A stretch of DNA of 64,000 nt from contig JAFWCB010000005.1 of assembly GCA_017537025.1 (NCBI GenBank), positions 310,001 to 374,000 of the forward strand, written 5' to 3'. This document shows, piece by piece, positions 19,861-62,878 of this stretch (within the stretch, counting starts at the first letter, position 1; every line of letters starts with the position of its first letter). Made by a program: the position numbers and the translations under genes. The notes under the pieces are model-generated. The model saw nothing but the letters and a program-made list of their open reading frames with translations, did no database searches and was not told the origin of the DNA. Source of the DNA: Sediminibacterium sp. (GTDB lineage: Bacteria > Bacteroidota > Bacteroidia > Chitinophagales > Chitinophagaceae).

Positions 19861-19990
19861 GTCAATAGTCATTAGTCAATGGTCATTAGGAAAAACTAAC
19901 TTTACAAATTTCTTACAACCACTACCCACTACCCACTACCCACTACCCACTACCCACTACCCACTACCCACTGACCACTGACCACTGACT
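19861..19990. repeat. heptanucleotide repeat array upstream of upp
   Basis: The left part is four degenerate 7-bp units, GTCAATA, GTCATTA, GTCAATG and GTCATTA (19861-19888). After a 32-bp spacer come seven perfect copies of ACTACCC (19921-19969), then ACTGACC twice and ACTGACT (19970-19990). The left units are imperfect reverse complements of the ACTGACC units, so the ends could form a hairpin. The 7-bp register runs on through ATTCCCT into the upp -7 element. The perfect copies make copy-number change by slippage likely. Confidence 0.9.
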
Positions 19991-19996
19991 ATTCCC

Positions 19997-20004
19997 TATC
20001 TTCG
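19997..20004 (+). promoter_or_regulatory. putative upp promoter -7 element
   Basis: TATCTTCG followed by C, directly at the end of the heptad array and 15 nt before the upp ATG. It is the TTCG variant of the Bacteroidota -7 element. Confidence 0.5.
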
Positions 20005-20019
20005 CAAAAACCCCTTCCA

Positions 20020-20673
20020 ATGGTCATTAATCTCAGCGAACAGCACAGTTTAGTAAGTAATTGGGTATCGGAACTAAGAAATACCGAAATACAGGGCGAT
20101 CGTTTACGCTTTAGAAGAAATTTAGAGCGGATCGGAGAAATTGCAGCCTATGAAATTAGTAAGCAACTTCCTTTTAAAATTCAGGAGACCCCCACCCCAT
20201 TAGGAACACACGAAAGTAAAGTACTCGCAGCCCAGCCTGTGCTGGCCACCATATTGAGAGCCGGACTACCCTTGCATAATGGTATGCTCAATTATTTTGA
20301 TAAAGCAGATAATGCTTTTATCTCTGCTTACCGTAAACATCACAAGGATGGAAGTTTTGAAATCAGTTTGGAATATATGAGTTGTCCGGTTTTAGAAAAC
20401 CGCGTAATTATTATAAGCGACCCTATGTTGGCCACCGGGGCTTCCATTGTAAAAACTATTCAATATATGAAAAATGAAGGCAACCCAGCGGCTATACATG
20501 TTGTAGTAGCTATTGCCTGTACCATAGGTATTGAATTTATTCATCGTGAATGTGGTGCCGAAATTCCCATCTGGTGCGGTGATATAGATGATGAACTCAC
20601 TGCCAAAGGATACATTGTTCCAGGATTGGGTGATGCCGGGGATTTGGCTTTTGGTTCCAAATTGCAAGCCTGA
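20020..20673 (+). CDS. upp: uracil phosphoribosyltransferase
   Basis: It salvages uracil by joining it to PRPP to give UMP. The PRPP-binding loop is clear (IIISDPMLATGASIVKTI, about residues 127-144), along with the ATILRAGLPLHNGML segment and a C-terminal uracil-binding region (CGDIDDELTAKGYIVPGLGDAGD). The 217-aa length is normal. It has a promoter-like element 15 nt upstream and is preceded by an array of 7-bp repeats, so its expression might respond to repeat copy number. Confidence 0.95.
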   Translation: MVINLSEQHSLVSNWVSELRNTEIQGDRLRFRRNLERIGEIAAYEISKQLPFKIQETPTPLGTHESKVLAAQPVLATILRAGLPLHNGMLNYFDKADNAFISAYRKHHKDGSFEISLEYMSCPVLENRVIIISDPMLATGASIVKTIQYMKNEGNPAAIHVVVAIACTIGIEFIHRECGAEIPIWCGDIDDELTAKGYIVPGLGDAGDLAFGSKLQA

Positions 20674-20725
20674 TTAACATATCCTTCTCAATTTTTTTGG
20701 TATATTTATTCTAAGGTTAGTTTGT

Positions 20726-21733
20726 ATGCGTAGTGTATTGTTTGTAGTAGTCTTGTTTTTGATAACCAAAAATATAACGGCTCAGGATCCGAATTTTTCA
20801 CAATTCTTTTCCTCTCCGCTTACATTAAACCCTGCTTTTACAGGCAAATTCTTTGGGGCTTACCGGTTCGCTGCAAATCACAGAAACCAATGGCCTACAA
20901 TCAATAATGCATTCACCACCACTACCGCTTCTGTTGATTTTCAAATTTTAAAAAATAAAATCGCTGCTAATGATACCTGGGGTGTTGGATTTTCCGGCTT
21001 GAGCGACCAGGGCGCAGCGGGTGCAGTAAAATTTAATTATGGCTCCTTCTCCACAGCTTATCATAAAGGATTAGACGAAGACGGCTTTCATCAATTAGGG
21101 GCTGCTTTTCAGGTTACCTATGCTAATATGTTTGTAGATCTTACAAAAATTAAATTTGCAGATCAGTTAACCACTCTTGGGTTCACCGGTGTTACATCAG
21201 AAGTATTTGATTTTAATACACTTAAATCTAATTATGTAGATATCAATGCAGGCTTATTGTATAATGGAAGTACAAGCGATAAAAATAATTTTTATGTAGG
21301 CGTGAGCATGTATCATATTAACCGACCCGCTCAGCAATTTACAGGTGCCTCGTATCTAATAAATCCCAGAACAAATTTTCATGCGGGCGGCTATTTCCCA
21401 ATCGGTGAAACTAGCACACTCCATCTTAGTGCTTCGCAAATTTTACAAGCAGGTGCATCACAAACGATGCTTGGAGGTGCCGTGCAGTTAACTGCATCGA
21501 GTAGCGACCCTAATAAACCCACGAGTATTTATGCAGGTAGCTGGATTCGTTTTAATGACGCGATCATCCCTTATATTGGTATTGAATTCAATGATTTTAG
21601 AATTGGTGCTACCTACGATTATAATTATTCTTCATTAAGAACTGCATCACAAAATCGAGGTGGTATCGAAGTGTCAATCATTTATATCCATCGCCCTTCT
21701 ACCGATAGACCGGTAAACTGTCCGAAATTTTAA
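20726..21733 (+). CDS. PorP/SprF-family type IX secretion membrane protein
   Basis: A 335-aa outer-membrane protein with a signal peptide (MRSVLFVVVLFLITKNITAQ) followed immediately by the family motif DPNFSQFFSSPLTLNPAFTG. PorP/SprF proteins are about 300-aa beta-barrels that anchor surface proteins or accompany type IX secretion and gliding components. The rest alternates hydrophobic strands (for example FYVGVSMYHINRPAQQF and FRIGATYDYNYSSL). No large adhesin partner sits beside it, as many SprF-like genes have, so the partner is unknown. Confidence 0.88.
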   Translation: MRSVLFVVVLFLITKNITAQDPNFSQFFSSPLTLNPAFTGKFFGAYRFAANHRNQWPTINNAFTTTTASVDFQILKNKIAANDTWGVGFSGLSDQGAAGAVKFNYGSFSTAYHKGLDEDGFHQLGAAFQVTYANMFVDLTKIKFADQLTTLGFTGVTSEVFDFNTLKSNYVDINAGLLYNGSTSDKNNFYVGVSMYHINRPAQQFTGASYLINPRTNFHAGGYFPIGETSTLHLSASQILQAGASQTMLGGAVQLTASSSDPNKPTSIYAGSWIRFNDAIIPYIGIEFNDFRIGATYDYNYSSLRTASQNRGGIEVSIIYIHRPSTDRPVNCPKF

Positions 21734-21749
21734 TTGCCTACTTTGTTAG

Positions 21750-21757
21750 TATCTTAG
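21750..21757 (+). promoter_or_regulatory. possible -7 element of the EI24 gene
   Basis: TATCTTAG followed by C, one substitution away from TATCTTTG/TATCTTCG, 18 nt before the TTG start. Confidence 0.35.
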
Positions 21758-21775
21758 CAAAAAAACAGTCCCCCT

Positions 21776-22552
21776 TTGCTAAAAGAGATTATTATAGCAT
21801 TACGAGCCTATAGAGAGGCGCATCTGTTTATTAAAGCAAACAAATTGTGGAAATGGATTATTATTCCCGGAATCATTTATACAATCCTTTTTTTACTAGG
21901 GGCTATTTATTTTAGTGATACTTCGAGTGATGCCATTAGTTGGATAGCCTTAAAAACCGGCTTAAAAGGATGGCTCGATAGAACAGATAGCGGCTTACTA
22001 GGTTTCATTTTCACCATGGGAGGCTTAATTCTTTGGCTCATTTTAATGTTATTTTATTTTTCTCTTTTTAAATATTTATTCTTGATTATAGGTTCTCCCG
22101 TATTCTCCTATTTAAGTGAAAAGACAGAAGCTATTATTGAAGGGAAAGATTTTCCTTTTTCTTTTTATAAAATTATTCATGATGCCATAAGAGGTGTAAA
22201 ACTTGCTGCCAGAAATAGTTTATGGCAAACCGTTTATCTCATCAGTATCATTCTTTTAAATTTAATTCCGGTTGTAGGTTGGTTAACACCTGTATTAGCT
22301 ATTTTAATTGAATGCTACTACTATGGTTTTTCCATGATCGATTATACTATGGAACGCCACAATAAAACTTCTGCTCAAAGTATTGATTTCATCAGTACAC
22401 ATAAAGGGCTGGCGATTGGAAATGGACTGGTTTTTTATTTGATGCACTTAGTACCAATAATTGGCTGGATATTCGCACCATCTTATGCAGTGGTTGCCGC
22501 TACCTTAAGTGTATACCCCCTTAAAGAACAACATACTGCGAATAATGAGTAA
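21776..22552 (+). CDS. EI24/CysZ-like integral membrane protein
   Basis: This 258-aa membrane protein belongs to the EI24-domain family that includes the sulfate permease CysZ. Predicted membrane segments include WIIIPGIIYTILFLLGAIYF, LILWLILMLFYFSLFKYLFL, TVYLISIILLNLIPVVGWL and a late LVPIIGWIFAPSYAVVAATL. The short VGSPVFSYLSEKTE-like segment (here IGSPVFSYLSEKTEAIIEG) is typical of the family. Sulfate transport cannot be concluded, because no sulfur genes are nearby. The start is TTG; no ATG fits. It overlaps the following methyltransferase gene by 8 bp. Confidence 0.82.
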   Translation: MLKEIIIALRAYREAHLFIKANKLWKWIIIPGIIYTILFLLGAIYFSDTSSDAISWIALKTGLKGWLDRTDSGLLGFIFTMGGLILWLILMLFYFSLFKYLFLIIGSPVFSYLSEKTEAIIEGKDFPFSFYKIIHDAIRGVKLAARNSLWQTVYLISIILLNLIPVVGWLTPVLAILIECYYYGFSMIDYTMERHNKTSAQSIDFISTHKGLAIGNGLVFYLMHLVPIIGWIFAPSYAVVAATLSVYPLKEQHTANNE

Positions 22553-23249
22553 ACAAGGAAACGTGATCCTCTTACCCATGGAATTGTATGAAAATACCGC
22601 ACATACCATTCCACCCTATGCTATTGAAGCGATCAAAAGCTGTTCTTCGTTTTTTGTGGAAAATGAGAAAACAGCGCGTCGTTTTTTTAAAAGAGTTTGG
22701 AGAGAAATGATAATTGATGATTATCGTTGGTATACTATTCATAAAACAGAAGAATCGGTAAAAAAAGATTTTTACAAAGAGCTAGAGGCGGGTAATACTA
22801 TTGGTATTATGAGCGAAGCAGGTTGTGCAGGCATTGCCGATCCCGGGCAAATATTGATTGCTCTCGCACAAGAAAAGGGATACCCGGTAAAGCCATTAGT
22901 GGGCCCAAGTTCTATTTTATTGGCGTTGATGGCTAGTGGAATGAACGGACAATCATTTCAGTTTAATGGTTATCTACCCATTGAAACCCAAGAGCGAAGA
23001 AAAAAAATAAAAGAATTAGAAACATTAGCTATTAAACAAGAACGTACACAAATTTTTATAGAGACTCCCTACCGTAATAATCAAATACTTAAAGATATTA
23101 TAGATACTTGTGCTAAAGAAACAAAGCTTTGTATTGCCGTAGATATTACTGCAAATTCTGAGAGTATTAAAACAAAAACCATCCGAGAATGGATGGTTCA
23201 ATTACCCGATTTACATAAGAAACCGGTTATATTTTTACTAGGAACTTAG
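22545..23249 (+). CDS. SAM-dependent methyltransferase, RsmI/tetrapyrrole methylase-like
   Basis: A 234-aa protein of the COG0313 type. RsmI itself methylates the 2'-O of C1402 in 16S rRNA. Conserved family parts are visible: NVILLPMELYENTAHTIPPY in place of the usual PIGN motif, SEAGCAGIADPGQILI, VGPSSILLALMASGMNGQSF and QIFIETPYRNNQIL. The divergent N-terminal motif suggests the shorter second paralogue common in Bacteroidota rather than RsmI proper, so no symbol is given. The ATG at 22545 is inside the end of the upstream gene; the longer upstream reading is unlikely. Confidence 0.82.
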   Translation: MSKQGNVILLPMELYENTAHTIPPYAIEAIKSCSSFFVENEKTARRFFKRVWREMIIDDYRWYTIHKTEESVKKDFYKELEAGNTIGIMSEAGCAGIADPGQILIALAQEKGYPVKPLVGPSSILLALMASGMNGQSFQFNGYLPIETQERRKKIKELETLAIKQERTQIFIETPYRNNQILKDIIDTCAKETKLCIAVDITANSESIKTKTIREWMVQLPDLHKKPVIFLLGT

Positions 23250-23641
23250 TGTTTAGGTGTTATCACAGTTTCTCCGGCAACACCTCTAATTTCCAATACA
23301 CTATCTACGATATATTTTTCAACTCCCCGCCAAGGAAGAGCACCTAAATATCGCTTATAATGCAAGTTCATTTCCCGGCCTGAATTTGCTTCAAGTATAC
23401 GCGCAATATTTTCTTCTTCTACGCTGAAATTAAATTCATTACTCTGTATGTTTTTTTGAAATCCGCTTTGGATAATTTTTCCTTCATAGGTTTTGAATAC
23501 AAAGCCCTTTTTTTGAAATGTATTTAATTGCCCCGCCTTAGTGCCTTCGGAGTAAACAAAATAAAAACGCCAATAACCGGCTACGAGTAACACAAGCAAA
23601 ATAACAGTAACGGTACTCCAGATAAATTTTTTTGTTGTCAT
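23246..23641 (-). CDS. membrane-anchored conserved protein of unknown function
   Basis: A 131-aa protein with one N-terminal membrane helix (WSTVTVILLVLLVAGYWRF) and a periplasmic domain rich in strands (GQLNTFQKKGFVFKTYEGKI ... NSGREMNLHYKRYLGALPWR). I recognise the pattern as a small conserved Bacteroidota protein but know of no function. It lies one base past the M28 peptidase stop on the same strand, so the two are probably co-transcribed. It overlaps the convergent methyltransferase stop by 4 bp (TTAG). Confidence 0.7.
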   Translation of the reverse strand: MTTKKFIWSTVTVILLVLLVAGYWRFYFVYSEGTKAGQLNTFQKKGFVFKTYEGKIIQSGFQKNIQSNEFNFSVEEENIARILEANSGREMNLHYKRYLGALPWRGVEKYIVDSVLEIRGVAGETVITPKH

Positions 23642-23642
23642 A

Positions 23643-25007
23643 TTATAATCCGTATTGATCTACAAGATAAACTAAGGCTGCCATATTCAATGCCCCTAAG
23701 AGTAATTCTCTTTTGTGCACATTTTCGAAAATATCCGACCTAGCATGATGTACATCAAAATAGCGCTGCGCATCGGGTAAAAAGCCTCCCAAAGCTGTTC
23801 CCAGATTCCGATTTAGTGGGCCAATATCGGCACCCCCGCCACCCATTCTTAAAATACCTGTTCCATACGGTGCTAATAAGGGCATCCAAGACTGTACTTT
23901 TTTCAACTGTGTTGTATTCATAGTAAAACCGAATCCTCTGGGGGTAAAACCACCTTCATCACTTTCTAGCGCAAACAAATGCTTCTCATTCTTCGCTTTT
24001 GCTTCTTCAGCATATTTAGTACCACCTCTTAATCCATTTTCTTCGTTGGCAAATAATACAAACCGAATGCTGTGTTTTGGCTGATAGCCTAAGGCTTTTA
24101 GGGTTCTTAAAATTTCCAAAGTATGAACCACACCTGCGCCATCATCATGTGCCCCTTCATTTACATCCCAACTATCTAAATGTCCGCCAATCGTTATATA
24201 TGTATCAGCATTAACCGATCCTTTTAATTCACCGATAACATTATATCCTTTAGCATCGGGCAAAAATTTACCGCTAGTAGTCATGGATATGGTGAAAGAA
24301 GATTTCTTTCCTAAACTCCAGAGATAATCGGCGTCATCTCCACCAACTGCAACTGCAGGAATTTTTGGAAAAGAATCATTATAAGTCATCCCACCTGTGT
24401 GCGGATTATTATCTGTGGCTTCTGTTAAAGAGCGTATTATCACTCCAACAGCTCCGTATTTTGCAGCTCTACTAGCACCGCTTCTCCGATATTGACCGGC
24501 TTCTGCATATGATATAGAGGGATCAATATTTCGAGGATTAAATTTATAATTGTAGTAAACAATTTTACCTTTTAACAGATCCTTCTTTGCTTCAAGTTCA
24601 GTATAATCTGCAACTGTAATTACCTCTGCAGTAACAGGGTTACCGTTAGTACCTAAAGAGTTTCCCAGAGCTAATACATCTAGAGATCTATTAGATTTTT
24701 TACCATCAATAGTAATGATAGTTGCTGCATCTCTACCCCCTCTATTCCAGTTAGGCATCATACATTCTTGCAGTGTCACATTATCTGCACCCGCTTCTTT
24801 CATTACCGCTTCTCCCCATTTTACCGCTTTCTCAAACTGTGGAGAACCTGCTAACCGACCTCCTATCTGTTTAGTAAGTTGCCTCAACCATTCGTAGGCC
24901 CTTCCATTTGTTAGCAGTTCATCTGCCATTTTTCTGATAAATAGGGAATCGTTTACTTGTGCTTTTGAAAATAGGGGTAAGCAAAAGAAGATTAATAATT
25001 TTTTCAT
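23643..25007 (-). CDS. secreted M28-family metallopeptidase with PA domain
   Basis: This is an exported zinc aminopeptidase/carboxypeptidase of family M28. It has a short signal peptide (MKKLLIFFCLPLFSKAQ), a protease-associated insert domain in the middle (about residues 110-240), and the catalytic domain with metal and active-site motifs: GGHLDSWDVNEGAHDDGAG, FANEENGLRGG, ALESDEGG and DVHHARSD. These supply the two-zinc ligands and general base. It probably trims peptides in the periplasm or outside the cell. A -7 element lies only 4 nt upstream of the ATG, suggesting a leaderless transcript. Confidence 0.92.
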   Translation of the reverse strand: MKKLLIFFCLPLFSKAQVNDSLFIRKMADELLTNGRAYEWLRQLTKQIGGRLAGSPQFEKAVKWGEAVMKEAGADNVTLQECMMPNWNRGGRDAATIITIDGKKSNRSLDVLALGNSLGTNGNPVTAEVITVADYTELEAKKDLLKGKIVYYNYKFNPRNIDPSISYAEAGQYRRSGASRAAKYGAVGVIIRSLTEATDNNPHTGGMTYNDSFPKIPAVAVGGDDADYLWSLGKKSSFTISMTTSGKFLPDAKGYNVIGELKGSVNADTYITIGGHLDSWDVNEGAHDDGAGVVHTLEILRTLKALGYQPKHSIRFVLFANEENGLRGGTKYAEEAKAKNEKHLFALESDEGGFTPRGFGFTMNTTQLKKVQSWMPLLAPYGTGILRMGGGGADIGPLNRNLGTALGGFLPDAQRYFDVHHARSDIFENVHKRELLLGALNMAALVYLVDQYGL

Positions 25008-25011
25008 AAAC

Positions 25012-25019
25012 TAAAGATA
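25012..25019 (-). promoter_or_regulatory. putative -7 element of the M28 peptidase gene (leaderless)
   Basis: The minus strand reads TATCTTTA, then GTTT, then the ATG of the peptidase gene. With only 4 nt between the element and the start codon, transcription probably begins at or next to the ATG. Confidence 0.45.
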
Positions 25020-25028
25020 GGGAATACA

Positions 25029-25147
25029 AATCTTCAATCAATAATCTGGAATCTACAATCTTCAATCTGAAGAACGCATACCCTATACCCTACACCCTGT
25101 ACCCTTCATCCTATTACCTACTACCATTCTCCCAATAACTTAATACC
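25029..25147. repeat. seventeen-unit degenerate heptad array between M28 gene and bshA
   Basis: The segment divides into seventeen consecutive 7-bp units in one register. The first six follow AATCTNN (AATCTTC, AATCAAT, AATCTGG, AATCTAC, AATCTTC, AATCTGA). After one irregular unit come ATACCCT, ATACCCT, ACACCCT, GTACCCT, TCATCCT, ATTACCT, ACTACCA and looser units, ending in TAATACC, which is part of the bshA -7 element. The AATCTNN units recur at 62808-62878. It fills the whole gap between two divergent promoters. Confidence 0.85.
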
Positions 25148-25151
25148 TTTG
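25144..25151 (+). promoter_or_regulatory. putative bshA promoter -7 element
   Basis: TACCTTTG followed by C, a perfect TAnnTTTG match, 17 nt before the bshA ATG and contiguous with the heptad array. Confidence 0.6.
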
Positions 25152-25168
25152 CATTTCAATAGTTAATC

Positions 25169-26302
25169 ATGCGTATAGGAATTGTTTGCTACCCAACCTT
25201 TGGCGGAAGTGGCGTGTTGGCAACAGAATTAGGAAAAGCATTGGCCGATAAGGGGCATGAAGTTCATTTTATTACGTACCAGCAGCCGGTAAGATTAAAT
25301 GTTTTTAATACCAATATTTTTTATCATGAAGTAAGGGTACCTACTTATCCCTTATTCGATTATCCTCCATACGAAGTAGCACTGGCAAGTACTATGGTAG
25401 ATGTGATCATTAATCATGATCTCGATTTATTACATGTACATTATGCTATTCCGCATGCTTCAGCTGCTTATATGGCTAAGCAAATTGTAAAACAAAAAAA
25501 TGGCAGAAATGTGCCTGTTATTACAACCCTGCATGGTACCGATATAACTTTGGTTGGAAAAGACAAAACCTATGAACCGGTAGTTACTTTCTCCATTAAT
25601 CAAAGTGATGCCATTACTGCTGTTTCAAATAATTTGCGCGAAGAAACCTACAGTTCTTTTCCGATAGAGAAAGAAATAGAAGTCATCTATAATTTTGTAG
25701 ATGTTACCCGTTTCGATAAAAAACCTTTAGATGCTTTTAGAAAAGTGATTGCGCCTAATGGCGAAAAAATACTCATCCATGCCTCTAACTTCAGAAAGGT
25801 AAAACGAGTGCCTGATGTGCTGCATGTATTTGCGAATCTTTTGAAAGAGGTACCTGCAAAATTATTGATGGTAGGTGATGGACCTGAACGCCCTGCCTGC
25901 GAGGAGTTAGCTCGTGCCTTAGGTGTAGACGATCATGTTCGTTTTTTAGGTAAGCAAGAGCAAATGGAAGATATTTTAGCAGTAAGTGATATTTTTTTAC
26001 TGCCATCCGAATATGAAAGTTTTGGCCTAGCCGCTTTGGAAGCCATGGCAGCACATAGTGTGGTGATCAGCACTAATGCAGGAGGTTTAAATGAAATAAA
26101 TATTCAGGATAAAACAGGATTCATGGCCAATGTAGGTGATATAAATGCCATGAGTCATTTTGCTATTCATTTGCTAAAGGATAATGATAGATTGAATTCT
26201 TTTAAAGAAGCTGCTTATCAGCACGCTTTACAATTCGATATCAAGCACATAATTCCCGTATATGAAAAATTATATGGCAGATTTTGTAGGATGGATTGTT
26301 GA
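25169..26302 (+). CDS. bshA: N-acetyl-alpha-D-glucosaminyl L-malate synthase BshA
   Basis: It catalyses the first step of bacillithiol synthesis, joining N-acetylglucosamine from UDP-GlcNAc to L-malate. The 377-aa GT4 glycosyltransferase matches BshA closely: MRIGIVCYPTFGGSGVLATE at the start, HVHYAIPHASAAYMA, TTLHGTDITLVG, then ASNFRKVKRVPDV and LPSEYESFGLAALEAMA with NAGGLNE as the donor-binding E-x7-E region. Its presence implies that this organism makes bacillithiol as a low-molecular-weight thiol; bshB and bshC are not in the window. The last 33 bp overlap the 3' end of the convergent aminotransferase gene. Confidence 0.95.
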   Translation: MRIGIVCYPTFGGSGVLATELGKALADKGHEVHFITYQQPVRLNVFNTNIFYHEVRVPTYPLFDYPPYEVALASTMVDVIINHDLDLLHVHYAIPHASAAYMAKQIVKQKNGRNVPVITTLHGTDITLVGKDKTYEPVVTFSINQSDAITAVSNNLREETYSSFPIEKEIEVIYNFVDVTRFDKKPLDAFRKVIAPNGEKILIHASNFRKVKRVPDVLHVFANLLKEVPAKLLMVGDGPERPACEELARALGVDDHVRFLGKQEQMEDILAVSDIFLLPSEYESFGLAALEAMAAHSVVISTNAGGLNEINIQDKTGFMANVGDINAMSHFAIHLLKDNDRLNSFKEAAYQHALQFDIKHIIPVYEKLYGRFCRMDC

Positions 26303-27493: not shown

Positions 27494-27502
27494 GTGGTAA
27501 AG

Positions 27503-27611
27503 GTAATAGAGAATAGGTTATAGGATGGAGGTAGAAAGCATATTGACTTATTCTAGTTATTTTACTAATTTCACCACACTATACATTACCCACTAAACAC
27601 TATAAACCCCT
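27503..27611. repeat. paired heptad runs between the aminotransferase and gamma-carbonic anhydrase genes
   Basis: The left side has purine-rich 7-bp units GTAATAG, AGAATAG, GTTATAG, GATGGAG and GTAGAAA (27503-27537). The right side has pyrimidine-rich units CACTATA, CATTACC, CACTAAA, CACTATA and AACCCCT (27577-27611) that end 3 bp before the ATG. The two sides have roughly complementary composition, as in the other arrays. Unlike them, no clear -7 element follows. Confidence 0.7.
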
Positions 27612-27614
27612 ACC

Positions 27615-28151: not shown

Positions 28152-28196
28152 ATAGGAACCTTTTACGTTATACAAATACCAACCTACACCCCAATT

Positions 28197-29335: not shown

Positions 29336-29418
29336 AGATGATGAAGATAAAGCCTTTTTCAGCCTTATCTAACTAATTTTTAGGAAATATTAACCATCCT
29401 CAAGCATAATAAAATCAA

Positions 29419-29426: not shown

Positions 29427-29430
29427 ACGC

Positions 29431-52282: not shown

Positions 52283-52362
52283 AAAGTCCAGAAGAAAGTC
52301 AAAAAGAAAGTCTGTGAGCCGAGTCCGACTTTCTCATAGACTGGCTTACCGACTTTCTTATG
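52283..52362. repeat. 12-bp-periodic imperfect hairpin upstream of pheT
   Basis: Three left units, AAAGTCCAGAAG, AAAGTCAAAAAG and AAAGTCTGTGAG (52283-52318), mirror three right units CTCATAGACTGG, CTTACCGACTTT and CTTATGGACTCC (from 52333). Each pair in nested order matches at 9 of 12 positions, so the whole could fold as one 36-bp imperfect stem with a 14-nt loop. Further GACT-containing units continue towards the promoter. Confidence 0.8.
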
Positions 52363-52387
52363 GACTCCTCATCTCCCCGACTTCCCT

Positions 52388-52395
52388 TACCTTCG
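52388..52395 (+). promoter_or_regulatory. putative pheT promoter -7 element
   Basis: TACCTTCG followed by C, 22 nt before the pheT ATG and downstream of the periodic hairpin. Confidence 0.5.
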
Positions 52396-54826: not shown

Positions 54827-54844
54827 AAATAGTTATCTTCAAGT

Positions 54845-55132: not shown

Positions 55133-55133
55133 T

Positions 55134-55415
55134 ATGAGTGAATTGATCCCTGTAAATATCGTAGTGGGCGATCGTACGTATCGCCTAAAAATTGAACCCG
55201 CCGACGAGGAAATGGTACGTAAAACGGCTAACCTGATCAATGAAAAAATCAGCTCCTTCAAACTACAGTTCGCGGGAAAAGATATGCAGGACTACATTTC
55301 AATGGTATTATTATGGTTTGCCACCGAGCAAAAACAGGGTACTAGCCCCGTAGAAGCCCAGGAAGCCCTGCATAAAATCAGGGAATTAACCGCTTTGGTG
55401 GAGAAGAGCCTTTAA
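55134..55415 (+). CDS. zapA: cell division protein ZapA
   Basis: ZapA binds FtsZ and bundles its filaments at the division ring. The 93-aa protein has the N-terminal beta-alpha FtsZ-binding domain (VNIVVGDRTYRLKIEPADEE, then MVRKTANLINEKISSFK) and a C-terminal coiled-coil tetramerisation helix (VEAQEALHKIRELTALVEKS). In many bacteria 6S RNA follows zapA; here the following gap contains a repeat array and the rny promoter instead. Confidence 0.92.
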   Translation: MSELIPVNIVVGDRTYRLKIEPADEEMVRKTANLINEKISSFKLQFAGKDMQDYISMVLLWFATEQKQGTSPVEAQEALHKIRELTALVEKSL

Positions 55416-55420
55416 GGGAC

Positions 55421-55550
55421 AAGGTATAAGGTTTAAGCAGTAAGGTTGGATCGGAGCGTCAGAGCTATCTAAAAATACACTCAATTTATTCTTTACCTTT
55501 ACAGATTCCTCCCGTCTCCCGTCTCCCGTCTATCATCTATTTTCATTATC
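55421..55550. repeat. paired heptad runs upstream of rny
   Basis: The left run is AAGGTAT, AAGGTTT, AAGCAGT, AAGGTTG (55421-55448). The right run is CTCCCGT three times, then CTATCAT, CTATTTT, CATTATC (55509-55550), which flows without a break into the rny -7 element (TATC shared, then TTCG). The 60 bp between the runs show no obvious period. The perfect CTCCCGT copies are open to slippage. Confidence 0.85.
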
Positions 55551-55554
55551 TTCG
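55547..55554 (+). promoter_or_regulatory. putative rny promoter -7 element
   Basis: TATCTTCG followed by C. It lies 81 nt before the rny ATG, giving a longer leader than the other promoters here. Confidence 0.5.
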
Positions 55555-55635
55555 CAAAAACCGACACTTATTAGTAAAAAATGAGATGTGTAACGGAAAA
55601 TAGGATTGTGAAATTTTTAAACCCTTGCCAAAGTC

Positions 55636-57201: not shown

Positions 57202-57240
57202 AAAAAACCAAAAAGAGTAGCACAATATTGGTTTTTTCCC

Positions 57241-57248
57241 TACCTTTG
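57241..57248 (+). promoter_or_regulatory. putative rplS promoter -7 element
   Basis: TACCTTTG followed by C, a perfect TAnnTTTG match 21 nt before the rplS ATG. Confidence 0.65.
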
Positions 57249-57269
57249 CCGTCCGCAAAAATTAAAGTT

Positions 57270-57620
57270 ATGAACGCAGCAGTTCAGTTTGTACATGAGC
57301 AATTGACCGTAAAGAAGGAATATCCTAAATTCAAAGCAGGTGATAACATCACTGTGAATTATAAGATTATTGAAGGTGGAAAAGAGCGTATCCAGAGCTT
57401 CCGTGGAGATGTTATTAAACTTCAAGGAAATGGTGCTACGTCTTCATTCACTGTTCGTAAAATATCTGATGGTGTTGGAGTTGAACGTTTGTTCCCTATC
57501 CTTTCACCAAATATCGACTCTATCGTTTTAAACAAAAGCGGTAAAGTACGCAGAGCTAAATTATTTTACCTTCGTGAAAGAAGCGGTAAAAGTGCTCGTA
57601 TTAAAGAAAAACGTTTCTAA
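57270..57620 (+). CDS. rplS: 50S ribosomal protein bL19
   Basis: L19 lies at the 30S-50S interface and contacts 16S rRNA. The 116-aa protein has the family pattern: [54 protein letters not shown], then [20 protein letters not shown]. The ATG at 57270 fits family starts; an earlier GTG in frame would add 14 odd residues and would lie upstream of the promoter element. It is monocistronic, with its own promoter and a strong terminator. Confidence 0.97.
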
Positions 57621-57638
57621 TCGTTTTGGAATGATAAG

Positions 57639-57671
57639 AAAAAGCGAAAACCCATGGTTTTCGCTTTTTTA
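57639..57671 (+). terminator. Rho-independent terminator of rplS
   Basis: A 14-bp stem (AAAAAGCGAAAACC and its complement) around a 3-nt loop, followed by a T run, 18 bp past the rplS stop codon. The A-rich left arm means it could also work in reverse. Confidence 0.93.
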
Positions 57672-57696
57672 TTGTACTTGCACCATTCAATTATAT

Positions 57697-57704
57697 TACC
57701 TTTA
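57697..57704 (+). promoter_or_regulatory. possible tatA promoter -7 element
   Basis: TACCTTTA followed by C, 19 nt before the tatA ATG. It belongs to the TAYCTTT(G/A) class. Confidence 0.4.
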
Positions 57705-57723
57705 CGAAACTAAATAAAACATC

Positions 57724-57912
57724 ATGGGCAATTTAGGTTTTCAAGAACTATTAATCATCGGATTGGTAGTATTAGTTTTATTCGGTGGTAGAAAAATCCC
57801 CGAGTTCATGCGCGGCTTAGGAAAAGGTATTCGCGAATTTAACGACGCCAAAAACAACGTTAAAAAAGAACTCGAAGAAGGCATGAAAGAAAAAGATAGC
57901 ACTAACGCATAA
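57724..57912 (+). CDS. tatA: twin-arginine translocase subunit TatA/TatE
   Basis: A 62-aa Tat pore-forming subunit: one N-terminal membrane helix ([20 protein letters not shown]), then the amphipathic helix with [20 protein letters not shown] and a charged tail. The length is typical of the short TatA of Bacteroidota. It could export the superoxide dismutase encoded at 5.7 kb, which carries an RR signal. tatC is not in the window. gatA follows after 23 bp. Confidence 0.93.
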
Positions 57913-57935
57913 TTTTTGGTTTAACGCTTATTGCA

Positions 57936-59381
57936 TTGTTTCGTTTTCACTCTATCTCCGATTATCATAAAGCATTACAGAACGGCCAAACCACCTGTGT
58001 GGAGGCCGTTCGTTTTTATATTGATGCCATAACAGAGCACGCTTATTTAAATGCTTACATAGAAGTTTTTGAAGAGGAAGCCCTTACTAAAGCTAATGAG
58101 CTGGATGAACTTCGCGCTAAAGAAGGAATCAATACATCTTTACATGGTGTTATTGTGGGCTTGAAAGATGTGATATGCTATAAAGATCATGCCGTATCGG
58201 CTGCTTCAAAAATTTTACAGCCTTTTACATCTATATACAGCGCTACAGCTACGCAAAAACTAATAGACGCCGGAGCTATCATTATTGGCCGACAAAATTG
58301 CGATGAATTTGCTATGGGTAGTAGCAATGAAAATTCAGCTTATGGTCCTGTAAAAAATGCGCGGGATACCAGTCGCGTTCCCGGCGGATCTTCCGGTGGT
58401 TCGGCAGTTGCCGTTCAAGCGGGTTTGTGTATGGTAAGCTTGGGCTCCGATACAGGTGGCTCGGTAAGACAGCCCGCTGATTTCTGTGGAATCGTAGGCT
58501 TAAAACCAAGCTATGGAAGGATATCCCGGTACGGACTGATTGCCTATGCTTCTTCCTTCGATCAGATAGGTATTTTTGCTAACAATATTCCCGATGCTGC
58601 TGTTGTGCTTGAAACCATTGCCGGAGATGATGAATATGACAGCACTGTTTCTACGCATCCGGTACCTGCCTACAGTTCATCGTTAACGCCACCCCCAAAA
58701 GCCTATAAAATTGCCTATTTTGAGGAAGCGCTGAATCATCCGGCACTCGACCCAACGATTAAAAAAGAAATTAAGAATACCATTGAATCTTTACAGTCAG
58801 CCGGACATGATGTGCAGCCTGTGTCCTTCCGTTTATTAAACTATGTAGTGCCCACTTACTATGTACTCACCACAGCAGAAGCTTCCAGTAATCTATCAAG
58901 ATTCGATGGCGTTCGCTTTGGTAGCCGTACAAAAAAAGAAGGACTCGATTTAACCGATATGTACAAAGCCACTCGCAGCGAGGGTTTTGGAGAAGAAGTA
59001 AAACGTAGAATTTTATTGGGAACCTTTGTATTGAGTGAAGGTTTTTTTGATGCTTATTTTACCAAAGCACAACAGGTTCGCCAATTACTAAAGCAACAAA
59101 CAGACACCATTTTTACAAATTTTGATTGTATCATTTCTCCTACCGTATCGGCTCCTGCTTTTAAACTAGGGGAAAAAACAAGCGATCCGATTGAAATGTT
59201 TTTGGCAGATATATTTACGGTATATCCAAATCTGGTTGGTATTCCTGCTATCTCCATTCCTCTCTATACCCACGAAAACGGAATGCCCTTTGGCTTACAA
59301 CTGATGACAGCAGCTTTCAATGAATTAACTTTGCTACAGCTTTCGCAAACACTGATGGCTAAGCAAGATGAAAGAATATAA
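57936..59381 (+). CDS. gatA: Asp-tRNA(Asn)/Glu-tRNA(Gln) amidotransferase subunit A
   Basis: The amidase subunit of GatCAB, which releases ammonia from glutamine to convert mischarged Glu-tRNA(Gln) or Asp-tRNA(Asn). The Ser-cisSer-Lys triad region is present: GVIVGLKDVICYKDH (Lys), RVPGGSSGGSAVAVQAG and VSLGSDTGGSVRQPADFCG (catalytic Ser). GLKPSYGRISRYGLIAYASS is also typical. The start is probably the TTG at 57936, as no ATG fits the family N-terminus. It overlaps the lytic transglycosylase start by 14 bp. Confidence 0.95.
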   Translation: MFRFHSISDYHKALQNGQTTCVEAVRFYIDAITEHAYLNAYIEVFEEEALTKANELDELRAKEGINTSLHGVIVGLKDVICYKDHAVSAASKILQPFTSIYSATATQKLIDAGAIIIGRQNCDEFAMGSSNENSAYGPVKNARDTSRVPGGSSGGSAVAVQAGLCMVSLGSDTGGSVRQPADFCGIVGLKPSYGRISRYGLIAYASSFDQIGIFANNIPDAAVVLETIAGDDEYDSTVSTHPVPAYSSSLTPPPKAYKIAYFEEALNHPALDPTIKKEIKNTIESLQSAGHDVQPVSFRLLNYVVPTYYVLTTAEASSNLSRFDGVRFGSRTKKEGLDLTDMYKATRSEGFGEEVKRRILLGTFVLSEGFFDAYFTKAQQVRQLLKQQTDTIFTNFDCIISPTVSAPAFKLGEKTSDPIEMFLADIFTVYPNLVGIPAISIPLYTHENGMPFGLQLMTAAFNELTLLQLSQTLMAKQDERI

Positions 59382-60357
59382 GATCATATTATTTTACTGC
59401 TTTCTTTTTTTTACTTCTTTATTATCGGCCCAAAAAGATAGTACCGATAAAATTGGTTTTAGCTCGCTGTTTAAGAACAAATTCGATTCTTCCAAACCAT
59501 ATGCAGCTCAGCTAAATCCACGTGCTGTTTCCTTTGTACAAGAGTATATAAAAAAACAGGGCAAAGAATTGGAACGCATGAAGAGCTGGGGTAAGCCCTA
59601 TTTTGATGTGTATGATAATATTCTCAAACTTTACGGCATACCTACAGAAATGAAATACCTCAGTGTAATTGAAAGTCATTTGCAATCGGGTTTGGTATCT
59701 TGGGCAGGTGCTGTAGGTCCCTGGCAAATTATGGACTATGAAGCCAAACGATTCGGATTGCGTGTTGGGGTTAATGATGAGAGAACCGATTATGTTAAAA
59801 GTACCCATGTAGCAGCCAAATTAATGCGTGAATTATATGCTGAATTTAATGATTGGCTCTTGGTTGTTGCGGCCTATAATGGCGGTGCAGGAAGAGTTCG
59901 GCAATGTATTCGTAAATCAGGTAGCAGGAGTTTTTGGGATTTACAATACTATCTTCCGGAAGAAACCAGAAATCATGTAAAAAAATTTATTGCAACCCAT
60001 TATATTTTCGAAGGGGGCGGCGGCTGGACCACTATGACGGCGGCTGAAACAAAATACCACAAAGAAAATATGCCCTTGCTTACAAAACCGATTCTTACTG
60101 ATGAAGAAGAAGCCACTACTACCACTATTGAGATAAGTGGCAGGTATCAATCACTTATTATTGCTAATGAGCTACTGATCAATATTGGTTTGTTCAATAA
60201 ATGGAATCCCGGTTTAGATAAACAGTTGTCGGAGGGAAAAAAATATTCGCTCCGAATTCCAAGAGATAAGCTTGCCATCTTTGAGGCCAAGAAACCTCAA
60301 TTACTGGCCGCATCACTACGGGCATTATTAGAAGGGAGTATACCCGGCAAACAGTAA
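59368..60357 (+). CDS. exported lytic transglycosylase (SLT domain)
   Basis: A 329-aa peptidoglycan-cleaving enzyme with a signal peptide (IILFYCFLFFTSLLSAQ). The transglycosylase domain shows the catalytic Glu in KYLSVIESHLQSG, then SWAGAVGPWQIMDYEAKRFG and VVAAYNGGAGRVRQC, typical of family 1 (MltD-like). The C-terminal ~80 residues lack a clear LysM repeat but include a short module (YQSLIIANELLINIGLFNKW) that may bind peptidoglycan. It overlaps gatA by 14 bp, so the two are translationally linked. Confidence 0.9.
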   Translation: MKEYKIILFYCFLFFTSLLSAQKDSTDKIGFSSLFKNKFDSSKPYAAQLNPRAVSFVQEYIKKQGKELERMKSWGKPYFDVYDNILKLYGIPTEMKYLSVIESHLQSGLVSWAGAVGPWQIMDYEAKRFGLRVGVNDERTDYVKSTHVAAKLMRELYAEFNDWLLVVAAYNGGAGRVRQCIRKSGSRSFWDLQYYLPEETRNHVKKFIATHYIFEGGGGWTTMTAAETKYHKENMPLLTKPILTDEEEATTTTIEISGRYQSLIIANELLINIGLFNKWNPGLDKQLSEGKKYSLRIPRDKLAIFEAKKPQLLAASLRALLEGSIPGKQ

Positions 60358-60358
60358 C

Positions 60359-60832
60359 CTAGTTCACTACTTTATCGGCGCAACAACTGCTAGCAAAGGC
60401 TTCCGGCTTGGCTTTGAAAGCAAATCCCATTCCCAGGATATAACCCATTGCTTCCCGCAAAGCATCATTACTCTTAAATTGGGGATTGGTGTTGATATCG
60501 GCATGCACTTCCATATCAACATGATACTCGATAAACAGGTTACATAACTCGTAAGCGATTTCGATACTCTTCGCAACTTCTACCAGCATCCTTTCTTTGA
60601 TATGGTATTTCTGCTTTGTTTTTTCATTGTGGATATACATGAATCCACCATTATGCTCACGCAAAAAAACAATTACAGTTGCAAACTCAGTATCATCGCC
60701 TTTAACCTGACTGTCGGTGCCGATACATACTTTTAAACGAGTACCTAGAGCTGTTTCCCTTTTGATGGCTTCTTCAACTGCATCCTTTATGGGAAGTGTA
60801 ATGGGCTCGCCATTGAATTTTCTCCAACGCAT
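60359..60832 (-). CDS. RNase H-like YkuK-family protein
   Basis: A 157-aa protein of the YkuK (DUF458) family with a predicted RNase H-like fold. Candidate metal-binding acidic residues occur in CIGTDSQVKGDDTEFATVIV and MEVHADINTNPQFKSND, spaced as in RNase H-type nucleases. Function is not established. It ends one base from the convergent lytic transglycosylase stop and diverges from the ABC exporter across a 185-bp gap that contains a repeat array. Confidence 0.85.
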   Translation of the reverse strand: MRWRKFNGEPITLPIKDAVEEAIKRETALGTRLKVCIGTDSQVKGDDTEFATVIVFLREHNGGFMYIHNEKTKQKYHIKERMLVEVAKSIEIAYELCNLFIEYHVDMEVHADINTNPQFKSNDALREAMGYILGMGFAFKAKPEAFASSCCADKVVN

Positions 60833-60920
60833 ATAATGAAGGTTTTTGTAAGTTACGTATGTTCCGTACTACAAAAATCAACCCCTCATCAAATTATTAT
60901 TAACAGTTGGGGATTGTTAT

Positions 60921-61010
60921 AGACGAAGGACGGTAGCCGGTAGACCATAAATCTGACTTTCGGACTTCCCGACTCGCGGACTGTAAACACGTATCTCGTA
61001 ACCCGTATCT
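60921..61010. repeat. 7- and 8-bp periodic array upstream of the ABC exporter
   Basis: The left run is AGACGAA, GGACGGT, AGCCGGT, AGACCAT (60921-60948). In the middle are four 8-bp units, GACTTTCG, GACTTCCC, GACTCGCG and GACTGTAA (60955-60986). The right run is CGTATCT, CGTAACC, CGTATCT (60990-61010), whose last unit overlaps the -7 element. The GACT units recall those upstream of pheT. Confidence 0.85.
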
Positions 61011-61013
61011 TCG
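61006..61013 (+). promoter_or_regulatory. putative -7 element of the ABC exporter gene (leaderless)
   Basis: TATCTTCG, then CATC, then the ATG. With 4 nt between, the transcript probably starts at the start codon. Confidence 0.5.
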
Positions 61014-61017
61014 CATC

Positions 61018-62808
61018 ATGAAACTACTGTTGCAATACCTGAAACCTTATAAATGGCTGGTAATGCTGGCTTTACTATTAGCCGCTATCAACCAGTCATT
61101 CTCTATGTTAGACCCCTATTTCTTCGGAAAAATGCTGGACAAATATGGCATGCACCCACTACAAATAGGTTATTTTAATGAAAGCAAACAATTTGTGGCC
61201 ACCGGCACAAGAACTCAATCAGAATTTATTTGGGGGGTATTGGGTTTCTTAGGAATCCTAATCAGTGTAGCCATGGTATCTCGTATTGCCAAAGCTTTTC
61301 AGGATTATTTTAGTAATGTGGTTGTTCAAAAATTTGGGGCAAAAATTTTTACCGATGGTTTAAAACATTCTATGCAACTGCCTTATCAAGAATTTGAAGA
61401 TCAACGCAGTGGCGAAACACTCTCTATTCTTTCTAAAGTAAGAACCGATACAGAAAGGTTTATCATTGCTTTTATCAATGTACTATTTAGTATTTTGGTA
61501 GGTATCGTTTTTATTTCCGTATACTCCTTCCGCCTACATTGGTCGATCATGCCTATTTACGCAGCCGGTATTATACTATTGTCCTTACTTACAAACTTAT
61601 TAAGTAAAAAAATAAAGGTTATTCAAAAAACCATCGTTAAAGAAACTACTTCTTTAGCCGGTACAACCACCGAAAGCCTTCGCAATATTGAATTGGTAAA
61701 AAGCTTAGGATTAACAGATCAGGAAATATCCCGATTGAATAAGAATACATATAAAATACTAGGACTCGAATTGCGCAAAGTAAAAAGTGTTCGCTCCCTA
61801 AGTTTTGTGCAGGGTACTTTTGTAAACTTTCTCAGGCAAATTATTATGTTCACCTTACTGTGGCTAGTTTTTAGTGGGAAGTTAACAGCGGGTGAGGTCA
61901 TGACACTTACTTTTTATTCTTTCTTTATTTTTGGTCCGTTACAGGAGATTGGGAATATCATTCTCTCCTATAGAGAAGCAGAAGCTTCTTTAAATAATTT
62001 TCACAATCTCATGCAGAAGCCTTCCGAGCCCATACCTGCTGCACCCCATAAAATTGGCAAAATTGCTTCCTTAACATTTGAGCATATTACTTTCAAACAC
62101 CAAACAGCTCAGTACAATGCGCTAGACGATATTAGTTTTGATGTGACGAAGGGAGAAACCATCGCTTTTGTAGGCCCTTCCGGTGCCGGTAAAAGTACTT
62201 TAGTTAAACTCTTAGCCGGTTTATATCGTGCGCAAAAAGGAACTATCAAATACAATGGTATAGATGCTAATGAAATAAATTTCGATGAACTAAGATCACA
62301 GATAGGATTTGTAACGCAAGACACACAATTATTTGCAGGAACCATCCGGGAAAATTTATTATTTGTTCATCCTACTGCCACAGACGAAGATTTACATGAA
62401 GCGATGCATAAAGCAAGCTGCGATAATCTTTTAGCTCGTGCAGAAAAAGGAATTGATACGATGATTGGAGAAGGCGGATTAAAATTAAGTGGAGGAGAAA
62501 AACAAAGGCTTTCAATAGCACGAGCTTTAATACGTCATCCACAACTGCTTATTTTTGATGAAGCCACTTCTGCATTAGATAGTATCACAGAAGAAGAAAT
62601 TACGAATACCATTCGTTCTATCTCTGCTCAAAAAGAACAAATCACCGTAATGATTGCGCATAGGCTAAGTACCATTATGCATGCCGATCGTATTTATGTA
62701 TTAGAAAAAGGGCAAGTGGCTGAAACAGGCACCCATTCGGATCTTATAGCCGAAAAAGGTTTGTACTATGCCATGTGGCGCCAACAGATTGGGGAGAGGA
62801 AGCAGTAA
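61018..62808 (+). CDS. ABC exporter, fused membrane and ATPase domains
   Basis: A 596-aa half-transporter of the MsbA/multidrug type that works as a homodimer in the inner membrane. The first ~330 residues hold six membrane helices (for example YKWLVMLALLLAAINQSFSM and FIIAFINVLFSILVGIVFIS). The ATPase follows with Walker A (VGPSGAGKSTLVKLLAG), Q-loop (GFVTQDTQLFAGTIRENLLF), signature (GGLKLSGGEKQRLSIARALI), Walker B (LLIFDEATSALD) and the H-loop (MIAHRLSTIMHADRI). Substrate unknown; lipid or drug-like molecules are typical. Its stop codon overlaps a heptad hairpin. Confidence 0.93.
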   Translation: MKLLLQYLKPYKWLVMLALLLAAINQSFSMLDPYFFGKMLDKYGMHPLQIGYFNESKQFVATGTRTQSEFIWGVLGFLGILISVAMVSRIAKAFQDYFSNVVVQKFGAKIFTDGLKHSMQLPYQEFEDQRSGETLSILSKVRTDTERFIIAFINVLFSILVGIVFISVYSFRLHWSIMPIYAAGIILLSLLTNLLSKKIKVIQKTIVKETTSLAGTTTESLRNIELVKSLGLTDQEISRLNKNTYKILGLELRKVKSVRSLSFVQGTFVNFLRQIIMFTLLWLVFSGKLTAGEVMTLTFYSFFIFGPLQEIGNIILSYREAEASLNNFHNLMQKPSEPIPAAPHKIGKIASLTFEHITFKHQTAQYNALDDISFDVTKGETIAFVGPSGAGKSTLVKLLAGLYRAQKGTIKYNGIDANEINFDELRSQIGFVTQDTQLFAGTIRENLLFVHPTATDEDLHEAMHKASCDNLLARAEKGIDTMIGEGGLKLSGGEKQRLSIARALIRHPQLLIFDEATSALDSITEEEITNTIRSISAQKEQITVMIAHRLSTIMHADRIYVLEKGQVAETGTHSDLIAEKGLYYAMWRQQIGERKQ

Positions 62809-62878
62809 ATCTGGAATCTTCAATCTTCAATACGATAATAAAATATTTGTACAGATTTCAGATTGTAGATTCCAGATT
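62808..62878. repeat. heptad hairpin filling the gap between two convergent genes
   Basis: The left arm is AATCTGG, AATCTTC, AATCTTC, AAT (62808-62831). The right arm (62853-62878), read on the other strand, is AATCTGG, AATCTAC, AATCTGA, AATCT. The arms can pair over 24 bp with three mismatches. They begin inside the stop codons of both flanking genes. The same AATCTNN units occur at 25029-25070. It could serve as a two-way terminator. Confidence 0.9.

Follow-up and report, generated by a model that had tools for sequence, protein, structure and literature searches.

What keeps a repeat period constant while the repeated words change from one gap to the next? The question is raised by a 64,000-nucleotide stretch of the Sediminibacterium sp. 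genome (hereafter, the window; C19:310001-374000 of a 3.19-Mb, 29-contig assembly that is 94.7% complete and labelled G000), in which a preliminary description, made from the letters alone, had singled out seven gaps with degenerate, supposedly promoter-linked short-period repeats. These sites are members of one genome-wide class of intergenic hairpins, many of which are inverted pairs of arrays whose 7-bp (occasionally 8-bp) words come from a single family, and the hairpins often begin in or just after a stop codon and end at the stop or the promoter of the next gene. At three sites, comparison with sister species clearly shows replacement of a hairpin by one of another word family, with both arms changed together and flanks and promoter kept; at further sites, such replacement is likely.

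Period-7 arrays, their words and their anchor at stop codons

The sample of G000 consisted of 1.6 Mb taken as stretches, with the shuffle control run on the first 800 kb; genes came from a simple codon-model caller, so that start positions are approximate. Arrays were scored as self-matching segments, with a threshold of at least 13 in the shuffle control, and hits of at least 10 were listed when orthologous sites were compared (the repeat test). The 375 intergenic gaps of the first 800 kb, amounting to 108 kb, contained 49 segments at lag 7, against 0.3 per shuffle and 1.6 scaled from coding DNA, a clear excess in the autocorrelation check that the preliminary description had proposed. The same gaps held 8 segments at lag 8 (0.0 per shuffle, 0.3 scaled from coding DNA), 2 at lag 12 (0.0 and 0.2) and 22, 15 and 7 at lags 14, 21 and 28, respectively (0.0-0.3 per shuffle each). 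Intergenic short-period repeats are real and genome-wide; among the 7-, 8- and 12-bp periods first named, 7 dominates, 8 is minor and 12 is rare. Mean matching in gaps was also elevated at lag 7 (z 7.6) and at lag 21 (z 12.4), yet lag 3 showed the same (z 19.0), which makes the segment test the cleaner measure. With a looser threshold, arrays were present in 56 of the 375 gaps and in 104 of 782 gaps overall. When up to 3 mismatches were allowed, CCACTACx3 matched the genome 57 times, overlaps counted, and its reversed control not once. Lag-7 segments numbered 122 in the 1.6 Mb of G000 and 45 in 364 kb of a sister genome, G535. Rfam yielded zero matches within the window.

Clustering placed the 64 arrays of lag 7 from the first 800 kb in four groups of 37, 24, 2 and 1 arrays, inside which families were named by sight: A (ATAGGNN), B (TAGTGNN), C (GTCAATA/GTCATTA), D (TAGACNN), E (GAATTAN), F (AGATTNN) and G (CGTATCN), with 8-mer words such as CGGACTTN beside them. 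Together with the lag-7 excess, these families bear out the initial picture of a dispersed, degenerate repeat family in which words vary by site and the 7-bp period is kept. Core-NN-core counts in gaps reached 89 for CACTA and 85 for AATCT, compared with 0 for the reversed forms and 8 and 21 in the sevenfold larger coding DNA. The counts for D (15) and G (2) do not clearly surpass the 12 and 4 of their reversed cores, where the 12 include some words of the AATCT family, so these two families rest on array scans, clustering and reading. The variable pair of AATCTNN is constrained, being TC, GG or AC in 75 of 85 cases. Several words carry stop codons (TAGTG, TAGGG, TAGAC, TAGTC and TGAATTA); a stop in every word was considered as the reason for the words and rejected, the AATCT stop-side arm and the 8-mers being mostly free of stops.

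Two further repeat types were observed. An 8-bp family, CTTTGCGTCTTAGCGCC, forms inverted pairs between convergent genes (C23:593113, C19:519842, C19:571141 and C19:197053), with similar words in G047, a genome of the same order. A 14-bp palindrome, TTCGCCNNGGCGAA, lies between or beside AATCT/AGATT arms at C19:222932, C19:620688 and C17:75699 of G000 as well as at L122:6901 and L136:5096; these several unlinked sites constitute a small subset of hairpins with a common loop.

An antisense partner within 120 nt was found for 81 of 188 non-coding arms, compared with 16 of 188 when the partner was sought in another arm's flanks, whereas same-direction partners were similarly scarce in both (5 versus 7). 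Many arrays are therefore inverted pairs, in agreement with the facing complementary runs remarked upon initially. Arms of different loci of one family pair as well as arms of the same locus (16.6 versus 16.0), and the idea that the arms of one locus are mutual copies was accordingly rejected.

The placement of arrays follows gene ends, and the more 3' ends a gap contains, the more often it holds an array. In G000, arrays are present in 19 of the 69 gaps between convergent genes, in 75 of the 551 between co-directional ones and in 10 of the 162 between divergent ones (convergent versus divergent, Fisher p = 3.7e-5). The median distance from an array edge to a stop codon is 6 nt, against 17 for random placement (0 of 1000 random placements were as low), with a peak at the first base of the stop, from which 31 edges lie 0-4 nt away; the median distance to a start is 38 nt, against 30 by random placement, showing no attraction. 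TAG accounts for 33 of 75 stops beside arrays and 261 of 1170 elsewhere (p = 6e-5). The anchor of the arrays is the stop codon, and the stop often lies inside the array, which can even encode final residues: queA of G535 ends in ...WNLESGIWDRE, whereas queA of G000 (...LLYSG) stops at the TAG that opens the array.

Sites of the window and their counterparts in sister species

The seven places of the window were read and scanned with Tandem Repeats Finder (TRF). Pfam matches on the neighbouring genes agree with upp, a glycosyltransferase consistent with bshA, pheT, rny and an ABC exporter. In the following list, (.) marks a feature to which no strand is assigned.

19861..19889 (.), upp site, 5' arm of GTCAATA/GTCATTA words, the inverse of GACTATT (TRF period 7/14; lag-7 score 11.4)
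19919..19999 (.), upp site, 3' arm, in which CCACTAC x7.7 gives way to CACTGAC and GACTATT (TRF; lag-7 score 60.8)
19997..20004 (+), TATCTTCG, -7-like element of upp, abutting the array (sequence)
25029..25068 (.), bshA site, AATCTNN array, conserved in G535 (lag-7 score 13.2)
25078..25125 (.), bshA site, ATACCCT array, with fewer and altered units in G535 (lag-7 score 16.8)
25144..25151 (+), TACCTTTG, -7-like element of bshA, 18 bp beyond the array (sequence)
27500..27530 (.), degenerate AGGTAAT/ATAGG array, sub-threshold in G000; in G535, the array reaches 17.4 and carries an insertion of 7 bp
27577..27605 (.), degenerate CACTA-type array (by eye; sub-threshold)
52283..52312 (.), pheT site, 5' arm of GAAAGTC words with 8/12 spacing (TRF period 12; lag-12 score 13.6)
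52327..52387 (.), pheT site, 3' arm of GACTTTC words; a CACTA hairpin in G535 (TRF period 12; antisense score 16.5)
52388..52395 (+), TACCTTCG, -7-like element of pheT, identical in three species (ortholog comparison)
55414..55444 (.), rny site, 5' array AAGGTAT, beginning in the upstream gene's stop, TAA 55413-55415 (lag-7 score 10.8)
55509..55540 (.), rny site, CTCCCGT array, 3 full units in G000 and 8 in G535 (TRF)
55547..55554 (+), TATCTTCG, -7-like element of rny, kept in three species (sequence, ortholog comparison)
60919..60947 (.), ABC exporter site, GACGGTAG-type 5' part (by eye; sub-threshold)
60955..61009 (.), ABC exporter site, GGACTTTC followed by CGTATCT words (own copy sub-threshold)
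61006..61013 (+), TATCTTCG, -7-like element at the ABC exporter, which is the last array word (sequence)
62806..62832 (.), convergent site, 5' arm AATCTNN, beginning in the stop TAA of the ABC exporter gene (lag-7 score 12.6)
62852..62879 (.), convergent site, 3' arm AGATTNN, whose end lies in the stop codon of the DUF2721 gene on the minus strand (lag-7 score 11.2)

Degenerate short units had been assigned to all seven gaps: four reach the score of 13 and a fifth nearly does so, but 27503-27611 and 60921-61010 have no hit of at least 10 in G000, whereas the G535 copies score 17.4 and 11.8. The words of 52283-52378 belong to the 8-mer-like GACTTTC family, and the gap 55421-55550 scores 10.8 and 18.4 at lag 7.

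The repeats had also been called promoter-linked, with the unit register said to run straight into a -7 element in four cases. It does so at upp and at the ABC exporter; at rny, the array comes within 6 bp, at bshA a gap of 18 bp intervenes, and pheT (52283) provides a further array flush with its element. Arrays fused to -7 elements could act as a promoter switch, altering promoter spacing and tuning expression by phase variation, and the flush or near elements at upp, pheT, rny and the ABC exporter speak for it, as does a weak adjacency: with the motif TANNTTYG sought within 150 nt of the start, 10 of 22 arrays lie -8 to 20 bp from it, where random placement gives 5.9 (p = 0.026). This adjacency may reflect merely the filling of free space up to the promoter. 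The motif is not enriched at promoter-side ends with arrays (22 of 82, versus 190 of 670 without), starts do not attract arrays, and arrays are rarest in divergent gaps, while 19 array gaps lie between convergent genes. In view of the lack of a -7 excess, the weakness of the adjacency and the attraction to stops rather than starts, we rejected promoter linkage as the organizing principle, and we give the switch very little credence.

The two sisters are metagenome-assembled genomes (MAGs): G535, Flavihumibacter nbed40b60, and G031, a Chitinophagaceae MAG that is 76% complete and in ~650 pieces. When AATCTTCAATCTGGAATCTNNAATCT was searched for across all genome contigs, 19 stretches were recovered, 7 in G535, 9 in G031, 2 in WOR-3 and 1 in Chloroflexi, with records of the own genome possibly excluded. 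Identity of aligned blocks to G000 is mostly 83-96% for G535 and 79-88% for G031, overall roughly 80-95% at the DNA level. G535 is comparable at all seven window sites and has other words at upp, 52283, 60921 and 62808, whereas at bshA, 27503 and 55421 the words are unchanged and only units differ. G031 is comparable at three of the seven, with different words at 55421 and 60921 and the same 8-mer family at 52283. Five of the seven sites thus have different words in one sister or both, and at three, 52283 and 62808 (G535) and 55421 (G031), both copies pass the repeat test. Assignments by eye, with scores below 10, concern the G535 copy of upp (degenerate ATAGGTAAT/CCTATTCCC words), the G000 copy of 60921 and the G031 copy of 52283. 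The 5' array of rny is longer in G535 (29.0) and is an 8-mer CGTCAGAA hairpin in G031 (17.0, 16.6); the ABC exporter site 60955..61009 has other hairpins in G535 (11.8) and G031 (10.0). The flanks of the window sites are 82-95% identical, and the -7 elements of pheT and rny are retained. In an outgroup, G023, ~60 nt without an array lie upstream of upp, as judged by eye.

The clearest swaps span a convergent gap from stop to stop. At 62808, the hairpin consists of AATCT words in G000 (antisense score of the arms, 16.5) and of TAGTG/CACTA words in G535 (self-match score 23.2), and at C23:629806 it consists of TAGTG/CACTA words in G000 and AATCT words in G031. Joint change of the arms was assessed with chimeras in ten comparisons at eight hand-picked sites, giving mean antisense scores of 11.2 for own arms, 16.4 for sister arms, 7.0 for chimeras and 5.9 for shuffles (95th percentile, 8.0). 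The change is clear at 52283 (G535), 62808 and C23:629806, where each species' own arms score 13.5-30.0 and the chimeras 4.0-6.0; G000/G031 chimeras at 52283, where the family is the same, pair as well as the real arms. Such sites provide a natural experiment, in which sisters have the same gene order, promoters and hairpin place, yet different words, and they separate what is kept (inverted arms, period, stop anchor) from what is free (the words).

Could the swaps be artefacts of assembly or binning? Both sisters are MAGs, and G031, with its ~650 pieces, has one tract with gaps identical to those of G000; however, three separate assemblies place the array inside one contig and agree on its flanks, which are 82-95% identical, and we find this explanation barely credible. 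The tract in question, locus L138 of G031 against C19:514079-516862, has three identical gaps (1.00) despite a genome identity of mostly 79-88%, pointing to recent exchange or a binning error. Separately, an 8-kb tract (L122 versus C19:541516-549482) is 96% identical between G000 and G535 amid mostly 83-94%, which suggests recombination between the lineages.

Turnover of the hairpins and their possible role and origin

At several orthologous sites, arrays lengthen and shorten by whole units, as slippage gives. The CTCCCGT array at rny has 3 units in G000 and 8 in G535, and 7- and 14-bp alignment gaps occur in conserved arrays. Of 38 gap lengths inside arrays, 19 came from sites not conserved throughout (17163, 361904 and 168995) and were dropped afterwards; by our own count, 8 of the 19 at conserved sites are multiples of seven, compared with 3 of 76 outside arrays. 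At the queA site, two array stretches enclose a gene whose protein identity between G000 and G535 is 63%, versus 90% for queA and 78% for the kinase opposite, and the arrays on both sides of this middle gene are CACTA words in one species and AATCT words in the other; at C19:17163, the sister is ~400 bp longer between the array arms, in a stretch that looks coding-like by eye. Arrays may thus bound exchanged blocks.

Neighbouring units in families F, E and A are no more alike than random draws (18 of 88 versus 21.6, 14 of 45 versus 13.0 and 4 of 30 versus 4.9, respectively). Along with cross-locus pairing that equals within-locus pairing, this is what shuffling between loci would give; template switching at the cores that units share would account for families F and E and for much of A. 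At array gene ends, classical GC-rich, T-tailed terminators are absent (0 of 68, versus 72 of 523 other ends; p = 1e-4), and among convergent gaps they occur in 0 of 13 with arrays and 18 of 39 without, which fits a substitution of terminators by arrays. The reading that we lean towards, with somewhat less than even confidence, combines a role in hairpins at 3' ends, akin to that of repetitive extragenic palindromes (REPs) and bacterial interspersed mosaic elements (BIMEs), with renewal by copying. Slippage would add or remove whole units; a new hairpin would be copied between array loci or lineages through template switching, ectopic conversion at shared word cores or allelic exchange; and the hairpin would be kept as a 3'-end structure of the transcript, a terminator or RNA stabilizer, for which any word family would serve. 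The swap sites make both the transcript-end function and the origin of the words directly testable.

Several observations weigh against this reading. The absence of terminators may follow from the array filling the space, and, measured against shuffles, convergent gaps fold no better when they hold arrays (n=13, mean z -2.85) than when they do not (n=34, mean z -3.22), z being below -2 in 8 of the 13 and above -2 in 5. In the arm test, G000 copies score no higher than noise (4.0-6.0) at 4 of the 8 sites, nor does the sister copy of upp (7.5), and the G031 loci outside the window were mostly picked via the AATCT pattern, which favours swaps toward AATCT. Most arrays are unswapped: among array gaps of up to 450 bp, 13 of 15 are at least 80% identical between G000 and G535, although 17163, one of the 13, is uninformative (shuffles reach 0.86) and the swapped or part-swapped 361904 and 25408 were lost to the length limit. 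For G031, the figure is 3 of 9, and for array-free gaps, it is 36 of 40 (G535) and 10 of 12 (G031); as a measure of swaps, whole-gap identity proved too blunt and was abandoned. The orientation bias is flatter in the G535 pieces (convergent 6 of 16, co-directional 21 of 125, divergent 6 of 43), ten divergent gaps of G000 do carry arrays, and mere tolerance would equally predict the depletion in divergent gaps. Finally, units of family B resemble those of their own array (22 of 99 versus 10.4; 21.2 if shuffled within arrays), with weak likeness in C (10 of 20 versus 6.3, p = 0.044) and in A at two units' distance (6 of 17 versus 2.7, p = 0.033), all of which slippage predicts.

A rival is a neutral explanation, in which the arrays are heptameric simple-sequence DNA made and homogenized by slippage, fold-back replication gives the inverted arms, purifying selection merely excludes arrays from genes and promoters, and swaps are loss followed by regrowth or imports. 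Whole-unit length changes, the simple divergence of most orthologous arrays and the within-array likeness in B, C and partly A suit this explanation, and tolerance alone also predicts closeness to stops and avoidance of promoters. According to Mrazek 2007, cited in the introduction of PMC4679880, heptamers were the commonest class of long simple-sequence repeats in most of the genomes covered by that survey. Neutrality accounts less readily for the recurrence of a few word families at many unlinked sites, for adjacent units in F, E and A that look like independent draws, and for the three clear sites at which both arms switch family together with promoter or stops retained. We regard neutrality as a serious possibility, albeit a doubtful one.

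A dedicated mobile or writing enzyme might make the hairpins, either a REP-associated tyrosine transposase (RAYT) that moves them or a reverse transcriptase that, like DRT10, adds repeats. RAYT (Y1_Tnp) matches exist in G000, G535 and G031, and a few hairpins share loop and arms, that at C17:75680 being 97% identical over 34 nt to those at C19:620680 and C19:222924. Most hairpin loops are, however, not shared; RAYT also occurs in genus members without AATCTNNx4 (G010, G035 and G036), and at the two RAYT loci that were read, no array scoring at least 10 adjoins the gene, with degenerate GGACT-type words near the one in G000. RVT_1 had zero matches in the three carriers (G000, 94.7% complete; G535; G031, 76% complete). 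We therefore rejected both a reverse transcriptase or telomerase-like writer and RAYT mobilization, the latter being present with no clear tie to arrays, and consider any such enzyme highly unlikely. Other repeats were also seen in RAYT loci: the RAYT gene of G535 is followed by a run of repeats of the GACTCTAACCCCGAAGGGGTGA type (L215:17486-17950), which form a separate class, and L219 of G036, the latter without AATCTNNx4, has arrays of the complementary heptamers CCATCGC and ATGGGCG.

Wider distribution and relation to known systems

AATCTNNx4 was found in 5 of 121 genomes of the genus sample (G031, 55; G000, 37; G033, 6; G525, 3; G533, 2), and 120 kb of loci from other genus members, not randomly drawn, held 3 lag-7 segments. 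In the same order, G047 and G046 have arrays in a partly shared style (TACCCAC, CATAACT, CACTAAC), with no AGATTNN. Across the phylum, 38 of 395 genomes contain CACTANNx4, mostly as clean arrays in the places listed; by our own count, the reversed control is nearly as widespread (30), so single clean arrays mean little, and G000 stands out by number (62 versus 0 in the control) and by its mixed units. The core word AATCTNN/AGATTNN is used in like manner in far phyla: places matching AGATTNNAGATTNNAGATT number 63-105 in each of G000, G535 and G031, 76 and 138 in two MAGs of WOR-3 and 187 in one of Chloroflexi, while the reversed control has none in any of the six. The loci of the far genomes are GC-rich and use partly other dinucleotide palettes (GC, GT, TG, GA, AG); since these genomes were retrieved by the AATCT pattern, sharing of that word was selected for. 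These sequences show that the style recurs in far phyla, which does not amount to transfer of the words. A process that copies or writes whole period-7 hairpins after stops, one word family per site, leaving sister species with differently spelled hairpins at the same place, and that itself, or its words, may travel between phyla, strikes us as unlikely. One WOR-3 locus (L139, UBA2258, GC 61%) has gaps packed with many different 7-bp arrays, one of ~280 bp, a heavier use than in G000.

How do the arrays relate to known elements? REP, BIME and REPIN sequences are palindromic hairpins dispersed in many copies at gene 3' ends and rare between divergent genes. The G000 arrays resemble them in being many-copy 3'-end hairpins that avoid divergent gaps but, unlike them, share only period and word family rather than a conserved palindrome (apart from one small shared-loop subset) and have no clear link to RAYT. 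Intrinsic terminators consist of a GC-rich stem and a T run, a combination found at none of the 68 array ends. The short tandemly repeated repetitive (STRR) heptanucleotides of cyanobacteria, reportedly described by Mazel in 1990, are likewise dispersed and tandem, with a few coexisting words; we know of no STRR description that includes inverted arms, stop anchoring or word replacement at orthologous sites. The comparison with STRRs made initially was fair, but the closest published match that we found is the Xanthomonas repeat GGGAATC (PMC4692102, seen in part).

According to the available part of that paper (Rehm et al. 2015), the heterogeneous heptamers GGGAATC/(GGGANTN)n occupy 186 and 183 loci in two Xanthomonas, form 70 and 75 inverted pairs, lie near or overlap stops on the coding strand with few divergent sites, and change length between species, 83% of sites keeping the repeat in the sister species. 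It mentions a Nostoc heptamer, GGGGA(C/T)T, alongside them and cites three coexisting heptanucleotides in Calothrix. Dispersed degenerate heptamers (49 versus 0.3 here), inverted pairs (81/188 versus 16/188), stop anchoring and divergent scarcity are thus shared with G000; the Xanthomonas repeats are a single G-rich, quadruplex-forming word, whereas G000 has several coexisting families that are replaceable in place. Neither GGGAATCx2 nor GGGANTNx3 has a copy in the 1.6 Mb of G000. TAACTGA direct repeats, in the portion of MacGregor 2015 (PMC4679880) that was available, are intergenic arrays patchily spread across phyla (Beggiatoaceae, cyanobacteria and a few Bacteroidetes), with stops in all frames, mostly just upstream of starts and with one inverted case; other heptamers accompany them in Gramella forsetii and Elizabethkingia. 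On this account, they are one word at starts, whereas the G000 arrays, also intergenic heptamers, lie at stops, with TAACTGAx2 absent from the 1.6 Mb and no attraction of arrays to starts. The DRT10 reverse transcriptase makes tandem-repeat DNA by adding repeats (PMC12632851, seen in part); RVT_1 has no match in G000, G535 or G031.

Heptamers count among the most frequent long simple repeats of bacterial genomes. Word-family replacement at orthologous sites was not found in the open-licence PMC literature, in the parts of it that were available, subscription journals being outside the scope of the search. Heptamer repeats, inverted pairs and closeness to stops were already published for Xanthomonas, and the swapping of words in place looks new.

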